From: an uncultured Olsenella sp.
GTDB taxonomy: Bacteria > Actinomycetota > Coriobacteriia > Coriobacteriales > Atopobiaceae
Length of the DNA: 64,000 nt
Reading direction: 5' to 3'
Assembly (NCBI GenBank): GCA_949287905.1
Contig: CASEHX010000018.1
Location: 1 to 64,000 of the forward strand
Of the stretch, positions 148 to 63,720 are shown one piece after another (positions within the stretch are counted from its first letter, which is position 1; each line of letters opens with the position of its first letter). A model generated the notes under the pieces. That model searched no databases. It saw only the letters and a list, made by a program, of their open reading frames with translations, and was not told the DNA's origin. The translations under genes were made by a program, and so were the position numbers.

Positions 148-341
148 CGCTTGACGAAAGTGGCCTCGTCTTAGCCAAAACCCGCAATATGACTGAGACG
201 AGCCCGCTTTCGTCAAGCGATTTGATCTAGAGGCTGAGACGAGGCCGCTACCGTCAAGCGATCTGAGCTAGAAGCTGAGACGAGCCCACTACCGTCAAGC
301 AACTTGGCTTTGAAACTGAGACGAGCCGTGCTTCACTGAAC
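148..341. repeat. R1 array, locus A: inverted/direct 27-bp repeats with 41-bp period
   Basis: One copy in minus orientation (148-176, containing CTCGTCTTAG at 165) is followed by four copies in plus orientation. Their CTGAGACGAG boxes begin at 193, 234, 275 and 316, so the period is exactly 41 bases. Each copy continues as a degenerate GCCCGCTTTCGTCAAG. The minus-to-plus offset is 28 bases (165 to 193). The same family and the same offset recur at 39410-39710. The region is downstream of the tRNA-Met terminator and shows no coding signal. Confidence 0.85.
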
Positions 342-390: not shown

Positions 391-466
391 TGGTGGGCCC
401 TGAGGGATTCGAACCCCCAACCCAGGGATTATGAGTCCCCTGCGCTAACCGTTGCGCCAAGAGCCC
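391..466 (-). tRNA. tRNA-Met (anticodon CAT)
   Basis: The minus strand folds as a 76-nt cloverleaf: acceptor GGGCTCT/AGGGCCC, anticodon loop CTCATAA, T-arm GGTTCGAATC and an encoded 3' CCA. CAT marks an elongator Met tRNA or an Ile2 tRNA whose C34 is changed to lysidine. The two cannot be separated without identity analysis; the first base pair G-C rules out an initiator-type C-A mismatch. Confidence 0.9.
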
Positions 467-475
467 AAAGTTATG

Positions 476-502
476 AAAAAGGCGACGACCGAAGCCGCCG
501 CC
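476..502 (-). terminator. Terminator between the two tRNA genes
   Basis: On the minus strand GGCGGCGGC, loop TTCG and GTCGTCGCC form a continuous 9-bp stem with two G-T pairs, followed by TTTTT. It separates tRNA-Ala from tRNA-Met, so the downstream tRNA may depend on readthrough or on its own weak promoter. Confidence 0.85.
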
Positions 503-512
503 CTCATTAACA

Positions 513-588
513 TGGTGGAGATAAGGGGGTTCGAACCCCTGACCTCGTGACTGCCAGTCACGCGCTCTCCCAACTGAGCTATATCCCC
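513..588 (-). tRNA. tRNA-Ala (anticodon GGC)
   Basis: A 76-nt cloverleaf with acceptor GGGGATA/TATCTCC, anticodon stem CGTGA/TCACG with loop CTGGCAG (anticodon GGC), T-arm GGTTCGAAC and an encoded CCA. The G3-T70 wobble pair is the alanine identity element and confirms the assignment. Confidence 0.95.
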
Positions 589-4958: not shown

Positions 4959-6344
4959 CTATCCCACGATGAAGCGAGCAATGTCGTTTCTCAGGACCAC
5001 GACGAACACGAACAGTATGAACCCGAGTCCGAGATAGCTCAGCGTGTCGACCGCCTTTGCGGAGAGCGGCCGGCGCCGCACGAGCTGGATGACCTCTATG
5101 AGGATCTTCCCCCCGTCGAAGGGAGGGATCGGCAGGAGGTTCATGAAGCCCAGGGACATCGAGATGGCAGCGACGACGGAGGCGAGCTCAAAGGCACCCG
5201 AGGAGGCAGCCTCGGAGGTCATGACGGCGATTCCGACGACGGAGGACGACTGGTCGAGCACCTCCATCGTATGAGTGGGGACGATGAGCTTGGCGACGTA
5301 GCTCGCGACCTGTCCCGTGTAGTCGAGCGTCGCGGAGGCCGCCTGGAGGAAGTCGGGGTGGTACGTGTCCACGGTCGCGAGAATTCCGACCTGATCCGAC
5401 GCGACGCCGTCGGGCAGGTCTATGAGCACGGTGCTCTCGGACCCGTCGCGCTCGTAGGTGAGCTCGAAGTCGGTCCCGCTCTCGAGGAGCGGCTCGAGGG
5501 CGGCGACGAGCTCGTCCCACGTGGAGACGGGGGTGCCGTCGACCTCCGTGATGACGTCGCCCGCCTGAAGCCCGGCAGTGGCTGCGGGAGTCCCCTCCGT
5601 CACGCCCGAGATGGTGCTGACGTTTGCCACGTAGTCCACGCCGCGGACCATAAAGGCTGCGGTCACGATCAGAAACGCGAGCACGATGTTCACGAGCGGG
5701 CCCGCGAACAGCATCGCGCAGCGCTTGAGGAAGCCGACGCCAAGATAGGTCCTGCTGCGCTCGTGATCGAGAAACTCCTCCGCGCTCATGCCCGTGTCGC
5801 GACCCTCGCCCGCCTTCGTCGATCCCTCGAGCGCAAAGTCATGCCCGCGATCGTACTCGGTGAGGAGGTTGGCGTCGCGAGCGGGGGCCTCGAAGGCGGC
5901 GGGATAGGTCTTCTGGTTGGGGGTCTCCCCGAGCTCGGGGTTGTAGTAGGGCCTGACGGAGGCCCAGTCGCTCAGCGTGACGAGAAGGTCGTAGGCATGG
6001 TCGAGGTCTATGTGGAGCTCGTCCGCAACCTCCTGAGCGCTGACGCGCCCGCGGCGGGTCACGAGGTCGAGCGCCGGGGCGAGAAGCTCGTCCGAGGCGC
6101 CCTCCATGCCGCAGATGCGCGTGTAGCCACCGAGCAGGAGCGGCGTCACGCCGAACTCGGTACCCACGCTCCGGCTCTTGCGAGAGAGCCTGAAGCGGCA
6201 CGGCATGCCAAGAAAGAACTCCGTCGCACGCACGCGGAAGGCGCGCGCGGAGAGGTAGTGCCCGCCCTCGTGGACGAACACGAGCACGGAGAGCACGAGC
6301 ACGCCCCAGAAGACGATCCAGATCACGTTGAGAATACCGCTCAC
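4959..6344 (-). CDS. rseP: Site-2 intramembrane metalloprotease, RseP/RasP family
   Basis: A membrane zinc protease that cleaves transmembrane anchors of regulators such as anti-sigma factors and can clear signal peptides. The 461-residue protein has HEGGH at 25-29 in its first membrane segment, a PDZ domain in the middle (GTPAATAGLQAGDVITEVDG), and LLPIPPFDGG near 403-412 giving the third zinc ligand. Between the HEGGH helix and the next membrane helix is a soluble insert of roughly 130 residues whose part ALDLVTRRGRVSAQEVADEL looks like a winged helix-turn-helix. The GTG start shares its first G with the dxr TAG stop and has GGAGGT seven bases upstream. The target substrate is not identifiable here. 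Confidence 0.9.
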   Translation of the reverse strand: MSGILNVIWIVFWGVLVLSVLVFVHEGGHYLSARAFRVRATEFFLGMPCRFRLSRKSRSVGTEFGVTPLLLGGYTRICGMEGASDELLAPALDLVTRRGRVSAQEVADELHIDLDHAYDLLVTLSDWASVRPYYNPELGETPNQKTYPAAFEAPARDANLLTEYDRGHDFALEGSTKAGEGRDTGMSAEEFLDHERSRTYLGVGFLKRCAMLFAGPLVNIVLAFLIVTAAFMVRGVDYVANVSTISGVTEGTPAATAGLQAGDVITEVDGTPVSTWDELVAALEPLLESGTDFELTYERDGSESTVLIDLPDGVASDQVGILATVDTYHPDFLQAASATLDYTGQVASYVAKLIVPTHTMEVLDQSSSVVGIAVMTSEAASSGAFELASVVAAISMSLGFMNLLPIPPFDGGKILIEVIQLVRRRPLSAKAVDTLSYLGLGFILFVFVVVLRNDIARFIVG

Positions 6345-11613: not shown

Positions 11614-12369
11614 CTACTCGGCGGCAGGGGCCTCGGCGGCCTCGGCGGGAGCCTCGGTCGCGGCCATCTCCTCGGCCGTGATCTGCTCCTTGCCGGAGCC
11701 GGCGAGGACGGCGTCAGCGGCGAGCTCGCACATGAGCGAGACGGAGCGGATGGCATCGTCGTTGGCGGGGATGCCGTAGTCGACGACGTCGGGATCGGAG
11801 TTGGTGTCGAGAAGGCCGATGACGGGGATGTGGAGACGGTTGGCCTCGCGGATGGCGATCTCCTCGCGCTTGGTGTCAACGACGAAGATTGCGGCGGGGC
11901 GAGAGGTGAGCGTGCGGGCGCCGCCGAGGTTGGCCTGGAGCTTGGCGAGCTCCTTGGTGAGAACGGCCTGCTCCTTCTTGGGCAGCAGGCTCATGCGGCC
12001 GTCCTCGACCATGGCCTCGAGCTCCTCCATGCGGGCGATGCGGGAGCGGATGGTCACGAAGTTGGTGAGCATGCCGCCGAGCCAGCGCTGGTTGATGTAG
12101 GGCATGCCGCAGCGCTCGGCCTGCGTGGCGATGGGCTCCTGGGCCTGCTTCTTGGTGCCGACGAAGAGGATGGAGCCACCCTTGGAGGCCGTCTCCTTGA
12201 GGAAGGTGTAGGCACGGTCGGCGCCGAGCATGGTCTGCTTGAGGTCGAGGATGTAGATGCCGTTGCGCTCGCCAAAGATGAACGGCTTCATCTTGGGGTT
12301 CCAGCGACGGGTCTGGTGACCGTAGTGGCAGCCGGCGTCGAGCAGGGTCTGGATAGTGATCTTAGCCAT
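11614..12369 (-). CDS. rpsB: Small ribosomal subunit protein uS2
   Basis: A 251-residue 30S protein starting [20 protein letters not shown], with the S2 signatures [18 protein letters not shown] and [10 protein letters not shown]. The C-terminus is an Ala/Glu-rich tail (after residue ~225) that is not part of the conserved fold. CAGGAGGTTACC precedes the ATG. An in-frame upstream extension of 33 codons lies in the mRNA leader and is rejected. A leader of about 145 nt separates it from the promoter. Confidence 0.97.
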
Positions 12370-37898: not shown

Positions 37899-39320
<1,422 letters not shown>

Positions 39321-39353: not shown

Positions 39354-39409
39354 CGCAGCTTATTGAGGGCCATCCCGCATCGTCCGCCATGTGTCTGGAT
39401 GAGCGATGC

Positions 39410-39710
39410 GAGATGACTCTCGTCTCAGCCAAGCGAGCAGGAGAGCTTGATGAATCGGGGCTCGTCTCAGCCCAAAGCTCTTCTCGCTTGACAAAATCAG
39501 GCTCGTCTCAGCCGAGCGACCGCTTGGGCTTGACGAAATCGGGCTCGTCTCAGCCTTAGCAGCAAATGCAACTGAGACGAGCCCCGTTTCGTCAAGAATA
39601 TGGGCGCCAAAGCTGAGACGAGCCTCGTTTCGTCAAGATTATGGGCGCCAAAGCTGAGACGAGCCCAGTTTCGTCAAGCCACAACCCCACCGAGGCTGAG
39701 GCGAGGCCGG
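39410..39710. repeat. R1 array, locus B: four inverted then four direct repeats, 41-42-bp period
   Basis: Minus-orientation copies have CTCGTCTCAG at 39419, 39461, 39502 and 39544. Plus-orientation copies have CTGAGACGAG (last one CTGAGGCGAG) at 39572, 39613, 39654 and 39695. The full unit extends through a degenerate TTTCGTCAAG. Two consecutive spacers share TATGGGCGCCAAAG. The inversion offset is 28 bases (39544 to 39572), as in locus A. Central copies could pair as a long stem with a short loop. The array lies between the rpmA terminator and the obgE promoter, so it is probably not transcribed by either. Confidence 0.9.
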
Positions 39711-39729
39711 GCTCGGACAGTCGCGCCCC

Positions 39730-39760
39730 AAAAGAAAACCCCGCGCCCAGGAACGCGGGG
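39730..39760 (-). terminator. Terminator of rplU-rpmA
   Basis: CCCCGCG and CGCGGGG with an 8-base loop, followed by TTTTCTTTT on minus, 26 bases after rpmA. Confidence 0.9.
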
Positions 39761-39785
39761 TCGAGACGAGCTATGGGGTTGCGCC

Positions 39786-40034
39786 CTACGCCTCGCGAAC
39801 GTGCACGCGGTGCTTGACGCCCTTGGTGAACTCAACGGTGCCGGCGGTGAGGGCGAACAGGGTGTCGTCCTTGCCGATGCCGACGTTGTCACCGGGGTGG
39901 ATGTGCGTGCCACGCTGACGGACGAGAATCTCGCCAGCCTTTACGAACTGGCCGCCGTAGCGCTTGGTGCCCAGACGCTGGGCGTTGGAATCGCGGCCGT
40001 TACGGGACGAGCCGAGACCTTTCTTGTGAGCCAT
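39786..40034 (-). CDS. rpmA: Large ribosomal subunit protein bL27
   Basis: An 82-residue 50S protein. It begins directly [19 protein letters not shown], without the cleavable N-terminal extension seen in many Firmicutes, and continues [20 protein letters not shown]. Follows rplU in the standard rplU-rpmA-obgE order. Confidence 0.97.
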
Positions 40035-63320: not shown

Positions 63321-63720
63321 GACGCTTATGCGCGGTTGCGACGGCTGTGCACATCAAAGACGGTTGTGCACACCCCTAACGGGAGGCACGACAACGCGAC
63401 GGTTGTGCGCTGCGCGAAAGGGTATGCGCAATGCCGCCGGTTGTGCGCATAGCACACATTCATAGATCCGCAGGTAGACGAATTGGCGAGAAGAACCTCT
63501 CCTCGGGAAACTTCGCACAACCGCTCAGACCGCGCACAACCGAAGCCGTTGCGCACAGCCGTCACCGTTGCGCACAGCCGTCACCGTTGCGCACCACCGC
63601 TTCCGTTGCGCACCACCGCTTCCGTTGCGCACAGCCGTCACCGTTGCGCATACCCGTCAGAAACGCGCTCAACCGCAGCCGTGCCGCGCAGCCTTCGCCA
63701 ACACGCATGGCCGTCGAGGG
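63321..63720. repeat. R2 array, right: 19-bp repeats, seven inverted then eleven direct
   Basis: Minus-orientation boxes (GTGCGC or variant) begin at 63328, 63347, 63366, 63385, 63405, 63424 and 63443. Plus-orientation copies (CGCACARCCG or variant) begin at 63514, 63533, 63552, 63571, 63590, 63609, 63628, 63647, 63666, 63685 and 63704, an exact 19-base period eleven times. The best unit is CGCACAGCCGTCACCGTTG. The minus-to-plus offset is 71 bases, identical to the left array. Confidence 0.92.
63469..63505. repeat. R2 core, right copy
   Basis: Ungapped match to 61921-61957 (27 of 37). The dyad is CGAGAA with TCCTCG, one mismatch from perfect. Confidence 0.8.

Follow-up and report, generated by a model that had tools for sequence, protein, structure and literature searches.

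Scattered through the intergenic DNA of gut Olsenella and their close kin are dozens of repeat arrays whose spacing is locked to the DNA helix, and this suggests the existence of an undescribed DNA-binding machine. Bacterial intergenic repeats have usually been explained either as the relics of mobile elements or as RNA hairpins. Here the conserved quantity is three-dimensional: it is the rotational phase on the DNA helix, which is kept across sequence-unrelated families of neighbouring species. This is a sign that common gut bacteria possess a DNA-organising or regulatory complex not yet described. We consider it probable that the arrays of the principal family, R1, are platforms for an unidentified, sequence-specific and oligomerising DNA-binding protein; the binding is inferred, there being no binding data. 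By kind the arrays are intergenic repeats or protein-binding arrays, and a phase-locked dyad geometry with an exchangeable sequence fits no family that we are able to name.

The window, the whole 64,000-nucleotide stretch of DNA that was analysed, is positions 1-64000 of contig C18 of a 1.985-Mb genome, and its box matches outnumber those in every one of 100 shuffles. Array A contains one inverted and four direct copies of the box CTGAGACGAG, at 165 (minus strand), 193, 234, 275 and 316, exactly as a sequence-only reading had placed them, with an inverted-to-direct offset of 28 and a period of 41. Its left arm is a single 25-nt unit on the minus strand (150-174), in which the box (165-174) reads CTAAGACGAG, a single mismatch to CTGAGACGAG, and the tail occupies 150-156. 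An 18-bp centre (175-192) separates the divergent boxes, and the right arm, on the plus strand, consists of a first unit with the exact consensus CTGAGACGAGCCCGCTTTCGTCAAG (193-217), a second (234-258), a third (275-299) and a terminal box without a tail (316-325). To the right of the array lie the genes for tRNA-Met and tRNA-Ala (391-588, minus strand); immediately to its left are two near-repeats with hairpins (3-42 and 93-132), each ending in AGCACACTTTNTGTCC.

Array B spans 39404-39720 between rpmA, the gene for ribosomal protein L27, upstream (39786-40034, minus strand) and obgE, the gene for the GTPase Obg, downstream (37899-39299, minus strand). It has four boxes on either side of an 18-bp centre (39554-39571). 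The left arm, on the minus strand, runs outward through unit 1 (39529-39553, box at 39544), unit 2 (39487-39511, box at 39502) and unit 3 (39446-39470, box at 39461) to a terminal box with a degenerate tail (39419-39428). The right arm, on the plus strand, runs through units at 39572-39596, 39613-39637 and 39654-39678, each beginning with its box, to the terminal box CTGAGGCGAG (39696-39705), which has one mismatch and a degenerate tail. The two arrays had been said to share a single geometry; the offset of 28 is indeed common to both, but the strict period of 41 does not extend to array B, where the steps are 41 or 42.

The R1 unit can be written as CTGAGACGAG-N8-CGTCAAG, 25 nt in length and often reading CTGAGACGAGCCCGCTTTCGTCAAG, followed by a spacer of 16 or 17 nt; the outer ends of an array are often a bare box without a good tail. 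This pattern has 147 matches in the 1.985-Mb genome (G000), versus 0 for the reversed control. Our census comprised 61 arrays with 356 units in five genomes, namely G000 (24 arrays), G020, G026, G016 (two) and G027 (one), and left out a pair at L189:6131 (a chance match) and a single unit in L185. A single divergent dyad, with the orientation -...-+...+, is found in 61 of the 61 arrays. The period is 41 or 42 in 232 of 234 steps (127 and 105, respectively, with one step each of 43 and 39), and the offset is 28, equivalent to a gap of 18 bp, in 57 of the 61 arrays. The exceptions are offsets of 18 in two orthologous arrays (gap 8 bp), 27 in one (gap 17) and 29 in one (gap 19). Arbitrary offsets at other loci, which would have refuted the conserved geometry, were looked for in all 61 arrays of the five genomes and are not borne out. 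Arrays within one genome share descent and tandem duplication, so these raw counts are not independent. Among 140 genomes of the family, R1 is confined to the clade of G000, G020 and G026 and to the two carriers with one or two loci, a lone weak match in G054 being the only exception; the sequence records that contain the unit are Olsenella/Atopobiaceae metagenome-assembled genomes.

Judged by flanking genes, the majority of the G000 arrays have an ortholog in G020, G026 or both. In the innermost units of such orthologs the box is 98.8% identical, the tail 94.6%, the eight bases between them 74% and the spacer 70%; the centres are 76% identical, and the lengths of both spacers and centres hold. 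The proposal that geometry is kept more strictly than sequence is thus true of spacers and centres, genome-wide and across species, with two refinements. The 10-bp box is itself almost invariant, so that what is conserved is the box together with the geometry, and, as described below, the geometry outlasts even the exchange of the box for an unrelated sequence in sister species. An arm mostly keeps its identity and its side of the locus, even as its number of units varies. The 18-bp centre alone looks inverted in 4 of 23 ortholog comparisons, with 17/18 identity in two and a weaker 13/18 in the other two, as might be expected if the inner palindrome flips occasionally; the centre of array A is probably one such case, with 13 of 18 positions matching its G020 ortholog when flipped versus 7 of 18 directly.

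At the rpmA-obgE site of array B, several other species of the genus have different repeats. One family belongs to sister species and is unrelated to R1 in sequence: its unit, likewise of 25 nt, is GGTACA-N10-TTTCTCGGC, with 401 matches in G023, 429 in G025 and 247 in G009, 21-34 in G004, G010 and G026, and background numbers elsewhere. All 36 scored GGTAC arrays have at most one dyad, and it is always divergent. Their steps are 31, 41-42, 52, 62, 83-85 or multiples, and their centre gaps 8, 18-19, 29, 39, 50, 60 and more, the larger of which probably include degenerate units that were not scored. A Rayleigh test at 10.5 bp gave R=0.89 for 35 centre gaps and R=0.95 for the steps; with each distinct value counted only once, R=0.77 with p about 1e-4 for the centre gaps, and p about 4e-5 for the steps. 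The spacing is quantised by about 10.5 bp, which is the criterion for a helically phased array, and, taken modulo 10.5, the centre gaps have a phase of 8.0 bp in GGTAC and 7.5 in R1. The few GGTAC units of G004 are mostly imperfect and still phased, as if they were decaying.

Other repeats occur as well. G023 contains a third family (GTGCCGACGG), with steps of 41, 42, 62, 41 and 41 and a gap of 7, and further families have steps of 19, 30-31 and 39-41. Within the window, positions 63323-63675 hold a second class of array, in which the box GCGCACAACCG recurs at 19-bp intervals and a single divergent dyad surrounds a 64-bp centre that contains GCAGGTAGA...GGCGAGAAGAACC; the arrays of G013 have another box (GTGTACGTAACC), likewise a 19-bp step and a similar centre core. 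Three G023 loci (L163, L164 and L165) carry nine or ten copies of the 20-bp palindrome ACTCATTTCCGGAAATGAGT at steps of 30-31 and 39-41 bp, and one of these palindrome arrays occupies the rpmA-obgE site. Repeated intergenic palindromes of 24 bp (GGACCCAAATCCGGATTTGGGTCC) are present in G018 (L170, 14391-16190). Several species share, with variation, a long inverted-repeat element whose core is GGACTGTCCGAGCGCCGGACC / GGTCCGCCGCGAGTTCCGCAGCC; it was seen in G018 (L171, ~4970-5200), in G017 (L176, ~11828-12080) and upstream of obgE in G015.

No scored array lies inside any called gene. With both neighbours known, 0 of 58 R1 arrays are situated between divergent genes, versus 18 of 55 other long intergenic gaps of the same loci; the gene calls came from a home-made hexamer model, and orthologous arrays are not independent. 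Every R1 array is 3' of at least one gene, so that R1 sits beyond gene ends. This preference is not a rule of the class, because 11 of 34 GGTAC arrays occur between divergent genes. Both kinds of array are missing from many genomes of the genus, and their function is therefore not essential to it. G016, a distant species of the genus, acquired both of its R1 arrays horizontally, together with an island encoding a GH20 glycosidase and LemA (L105, 6386-12124): beside the first array the native sequence (96% to G004) gives way to a donor-like one (95% to G000) that runs past LemA.

The binding platform that we favour would operate as follows. Each 25-bp unit would be one asymmetric bipartite site, made of the invariant box and a TTTCGTCAAG-type tail. 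The units recur every four helical turns, which would place all the sites on one face of the DNA, and the two arms would lead outward from one dyad, across a gap of 8, 18 or 29 bp that changes by whole turns only. The protein is inferred to assemble from the dyad outward along this one face, and related proteins of switched specificity may serve the different families and lineages. The most likely function, again only inferred, is an architectural nucleoprotein complex in intergenic DNA, acting as an insulator, an anchor or a transcription road-block. The observations beneath this scheme are the geometry itself, its helical quantisation, the conservation of the box, the intergenic location and the long-term positional stability, together with the lack of selection for arm pairing and the reappearance of this geometry in sister species on a recognition sequence unrelated to that of R1. 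That unrelated sequences share the whole-turn quantisation is our main reason for inferring a protein that reads a single helix face. A bolder generalisation, which we offer only tentatively, is that of a chromatin-like system in which a protein family builds dyad-symmetric, one-face filaments, the recognition sequence having been replaced wholesale between sister species and the geometry (a four-turn pitch and a dyad gap of 8 + n x 10.5 bp) retained. No candidate gene for an array-binding protein was found. A direct route to the complex is to identify the protein that binds the known, near-invariant 10-mer.

The strongest competitor of the binding platform, which we nonetheless think unlikely, is that the arrays are non-autonomous mobile repeats of a REP/REPIN or MITE-like kind, which a transposase acting in trans has spread, the transpososome and not any host function fixing their geometry. 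Like REPINs, R1 is a high-copy, intergenic and lineage-specific family, and there is one dyad per element; Y1 (RAYT-like) transposases are present in almost every genome of the genus; and duplications of arrays with identical or near-identical centres flank accessory genes at L095, L099 and L100. The arrays at L099 (6499-8529), two in number and identical in centre, bracket a 363-aa open reading frame that scores low for coding and matches nothing in Pfam or NCBIfam. Mobility accords poorly, however, with array positions that are old and have stayed unchanged in three species even as the spacers diverged, and with outer ends that are not conserved, a bare box often closing the array. Nor do the transposases fit: those RAYT genes whose flanks were read have their own, different repeats, and in G000 (C28 and C25) and G020 (C116) the Y1_Tnp genes are flanked by GTGACAAAGGGGTCGTAGCC... 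or TTCAAAAGGGGACAG... and not by R1. The check took in 20 Y1_Tnp neighbourhoods, and applies to the flanks read and not to every flank. The G026 Y1 gene is not an ortholog of that in G000 and G020, and the array-poor G015 has six such genes; RAYT genes do not track the arrays. Of the RAYT-like Y1 transposases of the genus (L303-L322), several have beside them a repeat of the type CAAAGGGGACAG... that is theirs alone, and the copies in G004 and on G018 contig C37 look broken. A REPIN hairpin was rejected since R1 units are not palindromes and complementarity between left and right partners does not exceed the random level. A mobile or plasmid origin was likewise set aside: plasmids gave no match for R1 or GGTAC, phages none for R1, and the viral contigs lacked the R1 unit.

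We give little credence to the arrays acting as RNA, that is, as transcribed palindromes serving as bidirectional terminators or 3' stabilisers. Every array does contain an inverted repeat, and R1 keeps to the 3' side of genes. Opposite-arm units, however, show no excess likeness (4.88 mismatches versus 4.94 across different arrays; innermost-pair permutation p=0.66), so that arm pairing, whether in RNA or as a cruciform, is not maintained by selection. Furthermore, rpmA already has a terminator-like site (39737-39762, minus strand), beyond which array B lies upstream of obgE; the GGTAC arrays between divergent genes rule out transcription termination as a general function; and helical quantisation has no obvious meaning for an RNA. 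For the window and six array loci, Rfam returned tRNAs and nothing else, giving no match of the arrays to a known structured RNA.

Equally doubtful is a neutral history of tandem duplication and template switching, through which the period was merely inherited without selection. It would account for the likeness of units within one arm (3.1 mismatches, versus 4.9 between arrays), for the differing unit numbers of orthologs and for the inversion of some centres alone, as expected of hairpin-loop flips. It would not account for a near-invariant box, or for spacers that are only ~70% identical between orthologs (43% between different arrays) with lengths essentially unchanged save for 16 versus 17, or for the period, dyad and phase shared by two sequence-unrelated families and changing by whole turns only. 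Dozens of dispersed intergenic sites that resemble protein-binding sites might also recall a macrodomain or segregation mark which, in the manner of matS or SlmA/Noc sites, is limited to one region of the chromosome, but this is scarcely tenable, as most species of the genus lack arrays and 14 R1 flanks mapped to orthologous positions in the complete genome G028 are spread between the vicinity of ori and that of ter (~0.12 to 0.89 of the way, with dnaA at 1.99 Mb, ter taken as opposite and synteny assumed; a few segments mapped weakly and the last three were excluded) and not over one domain.

Several further candidates were discarded. The arrays are not CRISPR arrays, since the spacers are 16-17 nt and often alike within an arm, and the direction reverses at the dyad. 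A sigma-70 promoter array was rejected, array B having no promoter-like match. The idea that CGAGAAG forms a universal core was dropped; it is enriched relative to base composition, but much of this is probably Glu-Lys codon usage in genes. A search of the literature on intergenic repeats of Olsenella, Collinsella or the Coriobacteriia found nothing relevant.

Each of the known systems closest to R1 shares only part of its design. Helically phased operator and iteron arrays consist of direct repeats at whole-turn spacing and are bound cooperatively on one DNA face; R1 has the same direct repeats and whole-turn spacing, but such arrays are found at one locus, a promoter or an origin, whereas G000 has about 24 R1 loci, every one with its own dyad. 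The DUS/USS uptake signals are near-invariant 10-mers that differ between sister lineages and form inverted pairs at gene ends. R1 resembles them in its near-invariant 10-mer, in the variation of sequence among sister lineages and in its inverted pairing at gene ends, but they occur as thousands of single copies, coding ones included, and R1 as intergenic arrays. Stoperator sites vary between phage groups. The stoperators of Cluster A mycobacteriophages are described as asymmetric intergenic sites, as R1 units are, bound by a monomeric two-domain repressor (PMC9283540); they are single short phage sites, in contrast to the helically phased dyad arrays of R1, which are chromosomal and for which no repressor was found. 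The REP, BIME and REPIN-RAYT repeats are short, high-copy, intergenic and lineage-specific inverted repeats whose families differ between relatives (PMC3116915), and R1 is like them in all of these traits, including the inverted arrangement. It departs from them in showing neither RAYT adjacency, in the flanks read, nor selection for arm complementarity, and in its architecture: non-palindromic units, many of them in the same direction in each arm at a fixed four-turn pitch, and exactly one dyad.
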